DNA of 64,000 nt from Aromatoleum toluclasticum ATCC 700605. Its GTDB lineage: Bacteria > Pseudomonadota > Gammaproteobacteria > Burkholderiales > Rhodocyclaceae. Position 1 is the stretch's first letter. Each line of letters begins with the position of its first letter. The stretch covers positions 248,001 through 312,000 of the forward strand of contig NZ_KB899491.1 of NCBI RefSeq assembly GCF_000378245.1, in the 5' to 3' direction. Position numbers and translations under genes: made by a program. Below the pieces are notes generated by a model. The model was not told the DNA's origin and did no database searches. It saw nothing but the letters and a program-made list of their open reading frames with translations. Positions 57,028-64,000 of the stretch are shown here, one piece after another.

Positions 57028-58029
57028 TCAGCGCGCCGCGGCGGTTTCGCGGGCGGTCTTCAGCGCGTCGGCACGCTGCTTCGCGAGGTCCTGCAAGGGC
57101 GGATAGGGGCCATAGCGGTGCTGGTCGGCCGAGGCACCGTCGACATAGGGCGGGAAGGCGGCATCCACCGGCTTGTTCCAGCGTGCCGGGAAGTCATTGT
57201 CAAGGCCGGCCTTGATCGGGCGCGGCTTCGACAGCACGTAGCCGGCGACGTCGAAGGCTTCGTCGTCGCTCAGAACCGGGGTCTGGTGGGTGGTGCCCTG
57301 CGGCATGTTGTGCCTGATGAAGGCGGCAGCGGTCAGCATGCGGTTCATGCCGGCGCCGTTGTTGAAGGTGTCCTTGCCCCACAGCGGCGGGAACGCATAG
57401 CCCTCGGCGTCGCCGACCTTGCCGCGGCGCTGGCCCTGTCCGTCGATGCCGTGGCAGGCGACGCAATTCTTCGCGTACACGGCCTCGCCGGCGGCGAGGT
57501 CGGCGCGGCGGTTGGGCGCCTTGATCGGCTTGGCGCCCGCACCCTCCAGCTTCGCGCCGATCGGCAGGCCGCGGGACACGTAGTGGATGTAGCTTGCGAA
57601 GGCCTTCATCTCGCGCGAGTCGAGCGGCAGCGGCCGGCCGTTCATGCTGCGCTCCATGCAACCGTTGACGCGCTCCTCGACCGAACTGATCGCATCCTCG
57701 CGTGCCCGATACTGCGGGAAGGTCGCGGCGACCCCGACCCATGGCATCGCGTAGGGTTTGGTCGCGTCGTTCTGGTGGCAGGACGTGCAGGCGAGGTTGT
57801 TGCCGGCCAGGCGCATCTTGCGATCCTGCACTTCCGGCCCGATGACCGCGAAAGTGCGGGTCGTGAGTTCGTGGCCGTAGCGCACGAGTTCGCCGTAGGC
57901 GTCGTGCGGCAGCGCCTCGAGCGTGGGGGCCGGGCGGTCGATCAGGCTGACTTTCTGGGCTTCCTGGGCAAATGCCGGCGCCGCGGCAAGCAGGAGCCCG
58001 AGGGCCGTCGTGGTGATACGCGCTTCCAT
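57028..58029 (-). CDS. Dihaem cytochrome c, thiosulfate dehydrogenase (TsdA)-like
   Basis: A 333-residue periplasmic protein with a signal peptide (cleaved near AAPAFA) and two haem sites, CTSCH (about 83) and CVACH (about 187). The first domain contains PYAMPWVGVAATFPQYRARE and RVNGCMERSMNGRPLP. That Cys, 39 residues after the first haem His, corresponds to the unusual axial Cys ligand of TsdA. TsdA joins two thiosulfate to tetrathionate, or the reverse. No tsdB or sox genes are adjacent, so the activity is inferred from the family. Confidence 0.78.
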   Translation of the reverse strand: MEARITTTALGLLLAAAPAFAQEAQKVSLIDRPAPTLEALPHDAYGELVRYGHELTTRTFAVIGPEVQDRKMRLAGNNLACTSCHQNDATKPYAMPWVGVAATFPQYRAREDAISSVEERVNGCMERSMNGRPLPLDSREMKAFASYIHYVSRGLPIGAKLEGAGAKPIKAPNRRADLAAGEAVYAKNCVACHGIDGQGQRRGKVGDAEGYAFPPLWGKDTFNNGAGMNRMLTAAAFIRHNMPQGTTHQTPVLSDDEAFDVAGYVLSKPRPIKAGLDNDFPARWNKPVDAAFPPYVDGASADQHRYGPYPPLQDLAKQRADALKTARETAAAR

Positions 58030-58298: not shown

Positions 58299-61233
<2,935 letters not shown>

Positions 61234-61238
61234 GAATG

Positions 61239-61323
61239 CGTTTCCCTACGCCGGCGTGACCCGGATCAGGTTCAAAGGGACTGTCTCAGCCCGCACATCC
61301 GATACGTGCGGGCACCCCTAACG
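61239..61323 (-). promoter_or_regulatory. TPP riboswitch (THI element)
   Basis: On the minus strand the conserved pieces occur in order: AGGGGTGCCC, the GGCTGAGA pyrimidine-sensing loop, the CCTTTGAACCTGATCCGGGT diphosphate-sensing part, and ACGCCGGCGTAGGGAA closing the structure. It is upstream of thiD-thiC, and binding TPP should lower their expression. A leader ORF begins six bases downstream. Confidence 0.95.
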
Positions 61324-61401
61324 GAACTTTGAACGTTACCCGAGCCGGTCCGTGCAGGCAAGCGCTTTTCTGCCCAAAGGAGGTGCGCCGTCTTGCGTGT
61401 G

Positions 61402-62022
61402 TTAGCGGCTGATAATATTCGCAGGCGCCGCGCGTGACCTGTCGCACTCCGGGTCGCCGCCGACGAACAGCGAGGCGAGCCACCCGGCGAACAGCAGCAA
61501 AGCGAGCTTCACCATCAGCCAACCGGCGCTTGCCTGCTGGTCGACCAGATAGCTGTTGCACACCCGCAGCGGGGCGGCGATGTAAAGCCAGCCGAGCACG
61601 GCGAGCATGCTGATGAAGTTGGTCCAGATGAAGCCACGGCCGATCGCGCCGAGCCGCCGCCACGCGAGCGCGAGCGGCAGGCCGACGAGCGCAGGCAGGC
61701 TGACGAACTTCGCCGCTTCGACGAGCGGGCTGGCGAGCGCGTCGTCGAGCGCGCGTGGCAGCATCCACCAGGTCGATGCGAACAGCGCGACGACGACGTG
61801 CGGGACCGGGCCGCCCGCGGCAGCGAGCAGCGTTTCCTGCCATGCATTGGGGAGCAGGCGGCAGGCGGCGAAACCGAGCGCCGCGAGCAGCGGAATCTGC
61901 ACCAGCATGTGGCCGCTCATCGTCGCTTCGAGCCATGCGCGCGCCGCCGGCGTCGCGAGCAGCAGGTACAGCAGGCAGAGCGCCCGAAGCCCGAGGTCGG
62001 CGCGCATCATGAAGAGCCTCAC
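61402..62022 (-). CDS. Six-helix membrane protein of a NO-reductase/oxidase cluster (orf1-like)
   Basis: A 206-residue integral membrane protein with about six hydrophobic segments (for example LGLRALCLLYLLLATPAARA and FIWTNFISMLAVLGWLYIAA) and a hydrophilic C-terminus. I do not recognise conserved catalytic residues. It overlaps the SenC/SCO gene by four bases and follows the haem-copper subunit gene, the position of orf1 in the norSY-senC-orf1 cluster of ammonia oxidisers. A role in assembly is inferred. Confidence 0.7.
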   Translation of the reverse strand: MRLFMMRADLGLRALCLLYLLLATPAARAWLEATMSGHMLVQIPLLAALGFAACRLLPNAWQETLLAAAGGPVPHVVVALFASTWWMLPRALDDALASPLVEAAKFVSLPALVGLPLALAWRRLGAIGRGFIWTNFISMLAVLGWLYIAAPLRVCNSYLVDQQASAGWLMVKLALLLFAGWLASLFVGGDPECDRSRAAPANIISR

Positions 62023-62633
62023 AGGGCCTCCCGCAGCCGGTCGGCGAAGCGGTCCGGTGCGTCGAGATCGGCAATTTCGGCGAGCCGGCCGTCGCGGCCG
62101 ACGAGATGGATCGCGGCGTTGTGCTCGAATTCGCCAAATTTGTCGGCAATCACGACGATGCCGAAGGCGGCGAGCAGCGCCTCGAGCTGCGCCGTGTCAC
62201 TCACGCGCGCGATCCGCCAGTGTTCGCCATCGGCGCCGTGGCTGCGGCCGTAGGCCTTGAGGCTCGGCGGGTCGTCGCGGGCGGGGTCGAAACTGATGCT
62301 GAGCAAGGCGACATCGCGCCCGAGTGCGTCGGGCGGCAGGCGGTCGCGGAGCTGTTTGAACGCCACGCCGAGGCTGCGGCAGATCGTCGTGCAGCGCGTA
62401 TAGATGAATTCGACCGCCAGCAGCCGCCCACGGTAGTCGTCGAGACTGAAGACGCGGCCGTCCTGGTCTTCGAGGACCGCCGCGGGCAGCGCCCGCGGGC
62501 TGCGCAGGATGTCCGCCCGCCGCGCCGCTTCGGCGGTGAAGGCGGTGAAGCCGTCGGTGCCCCGCCAGAAAACGCCGGCGCCGAGGACGGTCACCAGCGT
62601 CGTGACGAGGACGGTGCGCGCGATCGCTTTCAT
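62019..62633 (-). CDS. senC: SCO1/SenC copper-chaperone protein
   Basis: Thioredoxin-fold copper chaperone for CuA or haem-copper enzymes. The 204-residue product has one N-terminal helix (VLVTTLVTVLGAGVFW) and a periplasmic domain with the CxxxC copper site YTRCTTICRSLG (about 78-89) and the distal His in EFEHNAAIHLVGRDG. It begins 24 bases after the haem-copper subunit gene. Confidence 0.92.
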   Translation of the reverse strand: MKAIARTVLVTTLVTVLGAGVFWRGTDGFTAFTAEAARRADILRSPRALPAAVLEDQDGRVFSLDDYRGRLLAVEFIYTRCTTICRSLGVAFKQLRDRLPPDALGRDVALLSISFDPARDDPPSLKAYGRSHGADGEHWRIARVSDTAQLEALLAAFGIVVIADKFGEFEHNAAIHLVGRDGRLAEIADLDAPDRFADRLREAL

Positions 62634-62657
62634 GCGCGGCGACTCACGCCAGCGGTT

Positions 62658-64000
62658 TCACGCGACCGCGCTGCGTGCGACCGGCGCACGCTGGTAGTCG
62701 TGCCGCGCCAGGCCGATGCGGGCGAAGAAGCGGCCGACGAACAGCAGCGACGAGGCGATCACCAGCACGGCGAACACCGACGCGATGCGGTCGTACGGCA
62801 CCCATTCGGGCAGGTGGGCGGCGTAGCGGCGGGCGACGCTTTCCTTGCCGGAATACAGGAAGCTCAGCGTGAAACCGAGCACCGACGACGTGAACAGCCA
62901 GAACGCGATGCGGTCGATCAGGCGGTCGTCGGCCTCGTGGTCCGGCTTGCCGAGGTAGTACATGAAGCCGAACACCATCGCGACCATGCCGAGCAGCAGA
63001 TAGGTGTGGAAGTGTCCCGGCACCCACAGCGTGTTGTGCATCACGTAGTTCACCGTGATCGTGCCGTCGATGAATGCCGGCATCGCGCCCGCGGCCCAGC
63101 CGAACAGCGACAGGAATAGCAGCTTTGATGCCATGTCCCAGCGGATGCCAGAGCGATAGACGATCATCAGCGCGCCATAGCCGGTGACGACGAGGATAGG
63201 CACGGTGTTCAGGTAGCCGATGATGTGGCCCATGATCAGCATCCACTTCGGGAACGCGAAGTCCATCAGCAGGTGGTGCGGGAAAATGAACAGCACCATC
63301 AGCGTCGACGCGGTCCACGAGGCGAGGAACACCTTGTTCGACTTCCACGGCCGCTGCGTGTAGCGCGGCAGGATCTCGTAGACCGCGATCACCGCCATGT
63401 AGATCGTCGCGTTGATGAAGACGTGGCCGAAGAAGTAGATCATCCCCTTCGCCAGTAGCGCATCGATGGCGAAGCCGGGCACGTAGAGGTTCACCAGCAT
63501 CATCGTCAGGATGCTCGCGCCGACGACCAGGCCGATGACGTTGACGATCGTGACCATCGCGCTCGCCACCACCGTCGGCGGCGGCGCCTTGCCGTCGTCG
63601 TGGCCGAAGAGCTGTGGCCAGCCGAGCGCGCGGGCGAAATTGCCGTAGCGCGCGACGATCGCGCGGGCGACGTCCAGGTGCAGCAGCAGGAAGCCGACGC
63701 CGATCACGAGCAGTCCGCCCATGAAGAGCGCCGCTGCGTCCGCACTCCACATGCCCATCGACTTGCCGGGCAGCGGGAACAGGAAGGTCCATGCACCGTG
63801 GAAATGCCCGAGCAGCACGCTCGCGAGGATCATCACGACCCCGGCGAGGAACAGCACGAGGTTCGCGATGAAGATGCGCGACGACAGATCGACGTACTGG
63901 CGCAGGAAGTGCCACATCACCGACGCACCGGCGATCGCCGCGATGCCCACCATGCCGGCGCCGTGCAGGGTCATCAGCTGGTAGAAACGGTCTGCGCCGA
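62658..64000 (-). CDS. Haem-copper oxidoreductase catalytic subunit, possibly sNOR NorY (cut by right edge)
   Basis: Membrane subunit I of the haem-copper superfamily, about 447 codons visible, N-terminus outside the window. At least ten helices. Ligand motifs are a low-spin haem His in FYQLMTLHG, CuB ligands GHVFIN and FPHHLLMDF, and the haem pair PGHFHTYLLLG. In aa3 and ba3 oxidases the first motif is HPxVY, whose Tyr cross-links to His; here that Tyr is Asn. Loss of the Tyr and the following senC and orf1 genes suggest an NO reductase of the sNOR type. A CuA subunit II gene would be expected just beyond the edge. A divergent B-type oxidase is the alternative. Confidence 0.75.
   Translation of the reverse strand, partial: GADRFYQLMTLHGAGMVGIAAIAGASVMWHFLRQYVDLSSRIFIANLVLFLAGVVMILASVLLGHFHGAWTFLFPLPGKSMGMWSADAAALFMGGLLVIGVGFLLLHLDVARAIVARYGNFARALGWPQLFGHDDGKAPPPTVVASAMVTIVNVIGLVVGASILTMMLVNLYVPGFAIDALLAKGMIYFFGHVFINATIYMAVIAVYEILPRYTQRPWKSNKVFLASWTASTLMVLFIFPHHLLMDFAFPKWMLIMGHIIGYLNTVPILVVTGYGALMIVYRSGIRWDMASKLLFLSLFGWAAGAMPAFIDGTITVNYVMHNTLWVPGHFHTYLLLGMVAMVFGFMYYLGKPDHEADDRLIDRIAFWLFTSSVLGFTLSFLYSGKESVARRYAAHLPEWVPYDRIASVFAVLVIASSLLFVGRFFARIGLARHDYQRAPVARSAVA

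Follow-up and report, generated by a model that had tools for sequence, protein, structure and literature searches.

The window, a stretch of 64,000 nucleotides from Aromatoleum toluclasticum ATCC 700605 (bases 248001-312000 of a 654-kb contig), ends inside a four-gene set, norS-norY-senC-orf1, whose gene content and residues support its assignment as a complete cluster of the sNOR family, a rarer and still little-tested kind of nitric oxide (NO) reductase best known from ammonia-oxidising bacteria. We put at about 0.75 the probability that this cluster joins NO to nitrous oxide (N2O), probably under its own sigma-54 activator. The neighbouring DNA is called L008 (window position = L008 position + 52000). 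The four genes are transcribed from the minus strand in the following order:

norS, L008:12158-12688, beyond the window, minus strand: 176 amino acids, CuA subunit II (COX2 PF00116 3.3e-6, motif CMEYCGVAHHNM).
norY, window 62658-64145 (L008:10658-12145), minus strand: 495 amino acids, haem-copper catalytic subunit (COX1 PF00115 E 1.2e-50).
HVFIN motif of norY, 63411..63425, minus strand: residues 241-245; His241 is a CuB ligand, and Asn245 stands where oxygen reductases have the cross-linked Tyr.
senC, 62019-62633, minus strand: SCO family (SCO1-SenC PF02630 1.1e-15).
orf1, 61402-62022, minus strand: multi-helix membrane protein, Pfam none.

The norY gene crosses the right edge of the window, which holds 446 whole codons and the stop (62658..64000) and leaves the last 145 bases outside. 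The start of norY follows the end of norS, upstream of it, after a gap of 12 bases, and orf1 and senC overlap by four bases. A sequence-only reading of the window had proposed an sNOR-type enzyme from the truncated norY, followed by a SenC/SCO protein and a membrane protein in the order seen in ammonia oxidisers, and had pointed beyond position 64000 for a CuA subunit II. This subunit was found there as norS, the next two genes are as described, and passages of PMC4940428 list the order norSY-senC-orf1 for Nitrosospira multiformis and Nitrosomonas europaea.

Conservation was examined at 95 loci with a norY match, extending at most 5 kb beyond norY, which together with the own sequence give an alignment of 96 NorY rows. 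Thirteen of these loci (L009-L021) belong to the host genus, own genome included, and repeat named species; counts over 82 loci cover L022-L104 minus L024 and exclude the thirteen as repeats of named Aromatoleum. Two conserved peptides, from helix II and the VMHN region, served to collect the loci, which biases these positions and leaves residue 245 unaffected. L024 (Parasedimentitalea), with a broken norY frame, was excluded from every protein alignment and count, the structure alignment A5 was made minus L022 and L023, and alignment A4 minus L022. The four genes stand in this order on one strand at 90/95 loci (77/82 when the host-genus repeats are set aside), and in the five remaining loci one or two of them went undetected in the stretch examined. 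Because the same order on one strand recurs at 90 of the 95 loci, the arrangement is not due to chance. The excluded locus, on Parasedimentitalea marina plasmid pW43B, has its broken frame at L024:6001-7316, and matches to norS, SCO, orf1 and the transporter described below are present.

NorY is 79-81% identical to the NorY of nine Nitrosospira/Nitrosovibrio loci (L040-L047, L075), the range being 80-81% for N. multiformis (three strains and one metagenome-assembled genome; L042-L044, L046). The tree comprised 51 rows: 36 chosen of the 96 NorY, seven B, four A, three C and one cNOR, the Salinigranum and Paracoccus rows having been assigned to group A after their HPEVY motif was seen. The 36 sNOR rows lie on one side of a branch with support 100/100, with none of the A, B, C or cNOR references among them; it counts against this grouping that bNOR, eNOR, gNOR and nNOR rows are absent from the tree and that the program warns of long branches. 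Recognised sNORs from Nitrosospira and Silicibacter/Ruegeria are included in the group (Ruegeria pomeroyi being, presumably, the former Silicibacter). At the position of the cross-linked Tyr, Table A4 of PMC8756737 (credited to Hemp and Gennis 2008) has Y in oxygen reductases, E in both cNOR and qNOR, Q in eNOR and D in gNOR; N is given for sNOR and also for the CuA-NOR of Bacillus (bNOR). An eNOR, gNOR or cNOR would have Gln, Asp or Glu according to this table, and these candidates were rejected, as NorY has Asn. Identity, the published Asn and the tree thus uphold the family assignment first proposed; sNOR in Betaproteobacteria is already in print (PMC8756737).

The residues of the active site are in line with this. 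The haem and CuB ligands His61, 241, 290, 291, 378 and 380 are all present, as the sequence-only reading had it, and each is found in 96/96 rows, except His61 (95/96, one gap). Likewise, the cross-linked Tyr is absent as described: the codons of residues 241-245 lie at 63425-63411 and that of Asn245 at 63413-63411. Asn occupies this position in 95 of the 96 rows, the remaining one being unreadable (X), and Tyr does so in all four A-group and all seven B-group references of the joint alignment. In cbb3 oxidases, a Tyr of helix VII takes the alternative cross-linked role. Six residues before the CuB His-His of that helix, at the cbb3 position, NorY has Val284 (96/96), and the three cbb3-like genes of the own genome keep the Tyr in the joint alignment. 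A placement in the ba3 or cbb3 clades with an alternative Tyr had been named beforehand as an outcome that would speak against sNOR; NorY falls outside the B and C sequences used. Hence an A-family oxidase (Tyr missing at Asn245, NorY apart from the four A rows), a B-family (ba3) oxygen reductase (Asn for the Tyr of H-x3-Y, outside the seven B rows) and a C-family (cbb3) oxygen reductase (Val284, apart from the C rows) were rejected.

On the other hand, sNOR might mainly act as a high-affinity cytochrome c oxidase at low O2 with NO present, NO reduction being a side reaction. We consider this unlikely. NorY does have the metal-site framework of oxidases, and its best sequence matches among solved structures are ba3 oxidases; that of Thermus thermophilus (B-family, 5.8e-10) shares the histidine framework, but keeps the Tyr of H-x3-Y and belongs to a separate clade. 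The fold was modelled on the NorY of Aromatoleum evansii in place of the window protein (AlphaFold, 98% identical to the own sequence, mean pLDDT (predicted local distance difference test) 82), and is that of a haem-copper oxidase. Its top fold matches are aa3-type oxidases (Z 37.3, root-mean-square deviation 2.7 and 452 residues aligned for 3omi_C); among the best 50 entries of VIA-align, cbb3 stands at the foot, and ba3 appears only among the Foldseek matches listed. Against an oxidase stand the Asn and Val described above, in 95/96 rows (one unreadable) and 96/96 rows, whereas every A-, B- and C-group reference used keeps one Tyr or the other. The genome, moreover, is already supplied with oxidase genes, two of the A group and three cbb3-like.

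The K-channel bears on another alternative. When aligned without gaps, the core positions of this channel in NorY are hydrophobic, with Ile/Val/Leu in 95/96 rows (one Ala) and Val/Ile in 96/96, and the position of what we take to be ba3 Tyr244 is Val in 94/96. In an alternative alignment with a one-residue gap, the invariant NorY Thr321 falls at the K-channel position. Table A4 of PMC8756737 lists sNOR without a proton channel, which the hydrophobic ungapped core fits; the gapped alignment gives Thr321 instead. NorY could in principle be a bNOR, since the same table gives N for that family also, the name CuA-NOR implies CuA, and the comparison with bNOR draws on its published description. This is very improbable, however, given that NorY is 79-81% identical to its Nitrosospira/Nitrosovibrio counterparts and that those loci share the four genes; in addition, CuA-NOR is listed in Bacillus and with one proton channel (PMC8756737), unlike the hydrophobic core of NorY, though Thr321 qualifies this difference. 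Along helix VI of the sNOR rows, Tyr249 (96/96), Tyr256 (95/96) and Glu257 (95/96) are conserved and may stand in for the K-channel proton path.

In the proposed mechanism, electrons would travel from a carrier in the periplasm to CuA of NorS, a small membrane-anchored subunit, then to the low-spin haem of NorY and on to its binuclear site, formed by a high-spin haem and CuB, where two NO would be coupled to give N2O. As Asn replaces the cross-linked Tyr, this site would be without the extra electron and proton donor that oxidases use to split the O-O bond. The other proteins of the cluster are conserved along with NorY. The NorS pattern C-x-E-x-C-G-x2-H-x2-M is found in 92/94 norS (exceptions L023 and L069), and all 91 senC found encode CxxxC. 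As a member of the SCO family, SenC would probably deliver copper to the CuA of NorS. For orf1, 30 of 94 loci were chosen and four with over-long frames (L052, L069, L079, L101) removed; W86, P89, K105, P151, R153, C155, Y158 and Q163 are among the residues invariant in the 26/26 rows, several of them in the stretch P-x-R-x-C-x2-Y-x4-Q. The orf1 model is confident and all-helical (mean pLDDT 92). A Pfam scan of the window protein gave no family, the fold search no clear relative (Foldseek best E 1.4, VIA-align best Z 3.8), and a profile comparison with a CtaG-type assembly factor, the CtaG side of which was one sequence only, a probability of 0.7%. Orf1 probably has an assembly or accessory function in the membrane.

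The host, which the sequence-only reading had taken for a relative of probable denitrifiers, bears this out at the gene level. Its genome has narG (1915 bits), nirS (a cytochrome cd1 nitrite reductase of 575 amino acids), nosZ of the twin-arginine translocation type (1017 bits) and the cNOR gene norB (771.6 bits to 3o0r_B, which we take to be Pseudomonas aeruginosa cNOR), and is therefore equipped as a complete denitrifier. The nirS assignment rests on PF02239 (510.6 bits) and on a reading frame with a cytochrome c part; the cytochrome d1 stretch (L105) matched no NCBIfam family at 1e-10. The genome thus has the cNOR gene norB besides the sNOR gene set. Passages of PMC7825797 report nor genes in all Azoarcus-Aromatoleum genomes used there, the kinds of nor apparently not being told apart. 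As for the oxidases, two cbb3-like genes, L004 and L005 (contigs C12 and C14), are closely similar, and a ccoN-like gene lies in L003.

The nearest named NorY is that of A. evansii (98%). At E <= 1e-60, norY occurs in 13/17 genomes of the host genus (own included), 0/20 others of the family and 0/24 others of the order, and in a wider draw at E <= 1e-80 in at least 9/399 genomes of the order (own included), a lower bound as at most four candidates per genome were scored. The spread is patchy, since metagenome genomes labelled Rhodocyclaceae and Sulfuritalea also carry norY. A metagenome genome labelled Anaerolineae (L059) holds a norY fragment 83% identical to the own sequence on a 5-kb contig, for which a binning error is more likely than transfer.

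A regulatory module lies next to norS, and is the newer and less expected part of the locus, the enzyme itself belonging to the known sNOR family:

Sigma-54 activator gene, L008:12883-14223, beyond the window, plus strand: divergent from norS, 446 amino acids.
TGAACGTTCA-type sites, about L008:12831-12869, beyond the window: between norS and the divergent activator.
Sigma-54-like promoter, L008:12749-12764, beyond the window, minus strand: pattern match.

The activator contains a sigma-54 AAA+ domain, a Fis-type helix-turn-helix and a weak N-terminal PAS match (1.2e-4), with Cys50, 59, 63 and 69 common to all 24 activator rows (own included). It shares the first two domains with NorR, the NO-responsive sigma-54 activator whose targets are NO-detoxifying enzymes (PMC1274295), but differs by the PAS-like N-terminal domain with its four invariant Cys. 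NorR itself was rejected as an assignment (332.4 against a cut-off of 476); NifA scores higher, also under its own cut-off, and none of the 25 NCBIfam families shown reached its cut-off. Among the 82 loci, 23 have an activator homologue, 22 an Rrf2 gene, none both, and 37 neither in the stretch examined. Of 61 genomes, 13 contain the activator (E <= 1e-130), and these are exactly the ones with norY. The three Cys of the Rrf2 proteins are invariant (22/22), and that of Ruegeria is nearest NsrR, at 100.8 bits. In the literature searched, which was limited, we found no description of a sigma-54 regulator of sNOR.

The promoter-like architecture recurs with the activator. The TGAACGTTCA palindrome is present with at most one mismatch at 22/23 activator loci (Markov null mean 0.5, maximum 3), an IHF-like site ATCAA-N4-TTR, within the 40 bases before -24, with at most one mismatch at 21/23 (null 0.3, maximum 2), and the promoter TGGCACG-N4-TNGCT with at most two mismatches at 23/23 (null 2.0, maximum 6); the pattern for the -12 element (TNGCT), like those for the IHF-like and composite sites, was fitted after inspecting the sequences. 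With the textbook -24/-12 pattern (GG and GC required), 22/23 loci reach a score of 10 or more out of 12 beside the activator, as against 1.6% of 2300 null draws; L060, which has no half-sites at that place, counts among the 22. The same scan upstream of norS alone reached this score in only 12/23, because several loci have another gene between activator and norS; the regions finally scanned (beside the activator, or before norS for L039 and L060) were chosen after an earlier scan result. At L039 and L060, where the cluster is followed by the activator gene, half-sites and promoter pattern stand before norS. Elsewhere in the A. toluclasticum genome the composite site is absent, even when up to three mismatches are allowed.

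The sNOR cluster is thus probably switched on by its own divergent sigma-54 activator, as judged from these patterns; the activator would bind the TGAACGTTCA sites upstream of the -24/-12 promoter, with an IHF-like bend. That it is instead an unrelated neighbour and the promoter incidental seems quite improbable. Common inheritance can conserve neighbours, and seven of the 23 activator loci are Aromatoleum, so the 23 are not all independent cases, the others including Noviherbaspirillum, Ramlibacter, Sulfuritalea and Thiohalobacter; furthermore, DNA binding by the activator is a prediction, and the -12 element TGGCT deviates from the textbook TTGCW. An unrelated neighbour, however, sits poorly with the identical co-occurrence of activator and norY in 61 genomes, with sites that precede norS at L039 and L060 although the activator gene lies downstream, and with a palindrome at 22/23 loci against a null mean of 0.5/23. 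The association of the cluster with the activator and with Rrf2 hints at control by NO or redox state, which the activator would sense through its four-cysteine PAS-like domain, perhaps by means of an Fe-S cluster. Tentatively, at somewhat less than even odds, the activator may be the prototype of a class of sigma-54 sensors in which such a domain senses NO or redox state and the single target is the sNOR operon, reached via tandem TGAACGTTCA sites, other lineages using an NsrR-like Rrf2 repressor.

Published views differ on whether the cellular substrate of sNOR is NO or O2, and the residues and regulators alone move the question here. We infer NO rather than O2 as the substrate of NorY from the lack of a Tyr at either known cross-link position, from the NO-making and NO-consuming genes of its own genome, and from the Rrf2 genes with three Cys at 22/82 loci. 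According to passages of PMC8079940, NO reduction by cytochrome oxidase involves no tyrosyl radical and cNOR is without such a Tyr, so that an active site lacking it can do NO chemistry; the same source treats O2 reduction by cNOR, so the absence of Tyr alone does not exclude O2, and the argument for NO is indirect. Passages of PMC6967387 refer to initial, indirect evidence from Nitrococcus mobilis that sNOR reduces NO, and call for further research, and PMC3772326 favours NO removal for Nitrosococcus.

Several points weigh against NO reduction under dedicated control. In O2-limited N. europaea, norSY and senC transcripts rise 2.7- to 10.8-fold, and a role as a high-affinity oxidase was proposed (PMC6967387), which also speaks for the oxidase alternative. 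Other passages of that source name cNOR as the main NO reductase of N. europaea and regard SenC as a sensor of NO or low oxygen and not as a copper chaperone. As cNOR is already in the A. toluclasticum genome, it is not evident why a second NO reductase would be needed, and no purified, assayed sNOR was found in the literature searched. On the side of regulation, the 37/82 loci with neither regulator in the stretch examined and the score of the Ruegeria Rrf2 protein, below the NsrR cut-off of 182, count likewise.

The sNOR of ammonia oxidisers (N. multiformis, N. europaea, the latter absent from the loci compared) resembles that of Aromatoleum in the order of the four genes, the CuA subunit and the Asn at the Tyr position. 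Unlike these hosts, Aromatoleum is a denitrifier genus, no ammonia oxidiser, and has cNOR besides; ahead of norS it has a sigma-54 activator and its promoter, neither of which was detected in any of the nine Nitrosospira/Nitrosovibrio stretches examined. The R. pomeroyi cluster (L022) likewise has the order norS-norY-SCO-orf1, a NorY 53% identical to the own one and Asn at the site. It differs in that a formate/nitrite transporter gene follows and an NsrR-like Rrf2 gene precedes, replacing the sigma-54 activator. Homologues of this transporter (L022:8581-9399 and relatives) are present at 40/82 loci, including several Alpha- and Gammaproteobacteria, with 27-31% identity in the Nitrosospira loci.

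Downstream, the cluster is bounded by one further feature:

TPP (thiamine pyrophosphate) riboswitch, 61226-61329 (L008:9226-9329), minus strand: RF00059, 73.0 bits, between orf1 and thiD.

This riboswitch is not part of the sNOR cluster, which ends at orf1, because the riboswitch opens the next unit, thiD-thiC (names presumed from the translations). Across L008:9000-13000, a sigma-70 scan found no promoter, and two terminator-like sites were found versus 1.6 expected. Beyond the activator, a manganese riboswitch (yybP-ykoY, 79.4 bits; L008:14830-15010, minus strand) lies at the 5' end of a GDT1-family cation/proton antiporter gene (L008:14250-14951), and an alpha-type carbonic anhydrase domain stands behind an adhesin-E-like domain (L008:15237-16652, plus strand, beyond the window). 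Inside the window, at 57028-58029 on the minus strand, is a two-domain c-type cytochrome with a SoxA/TsdA-like domain (PF21342 2.4e-15), possibly a thiosulfate-handling cytochrome; the SoxA model gives 84.3 bits, under the cut-off of 110.

KEGG labels sNOR as coxA (PMC11388526); such enzymes are thus easily annotated as oxidases, and NO reduction by the organisms that carry them may be undercounted. With both cNOR and sNOR, Aromatoleum would offer cultivable denitrifiers in which the NO-or-O2 question could be decided. The apparently dedicated regulator gives a second handle, as its signal would tell the purpose of the enzyme. If the activator is indeed such a sensor, sNOR would be under the control of cysteine-based regulators of two unrelated kinds, which would argue that NO is what the enzyme acts on physiologically.

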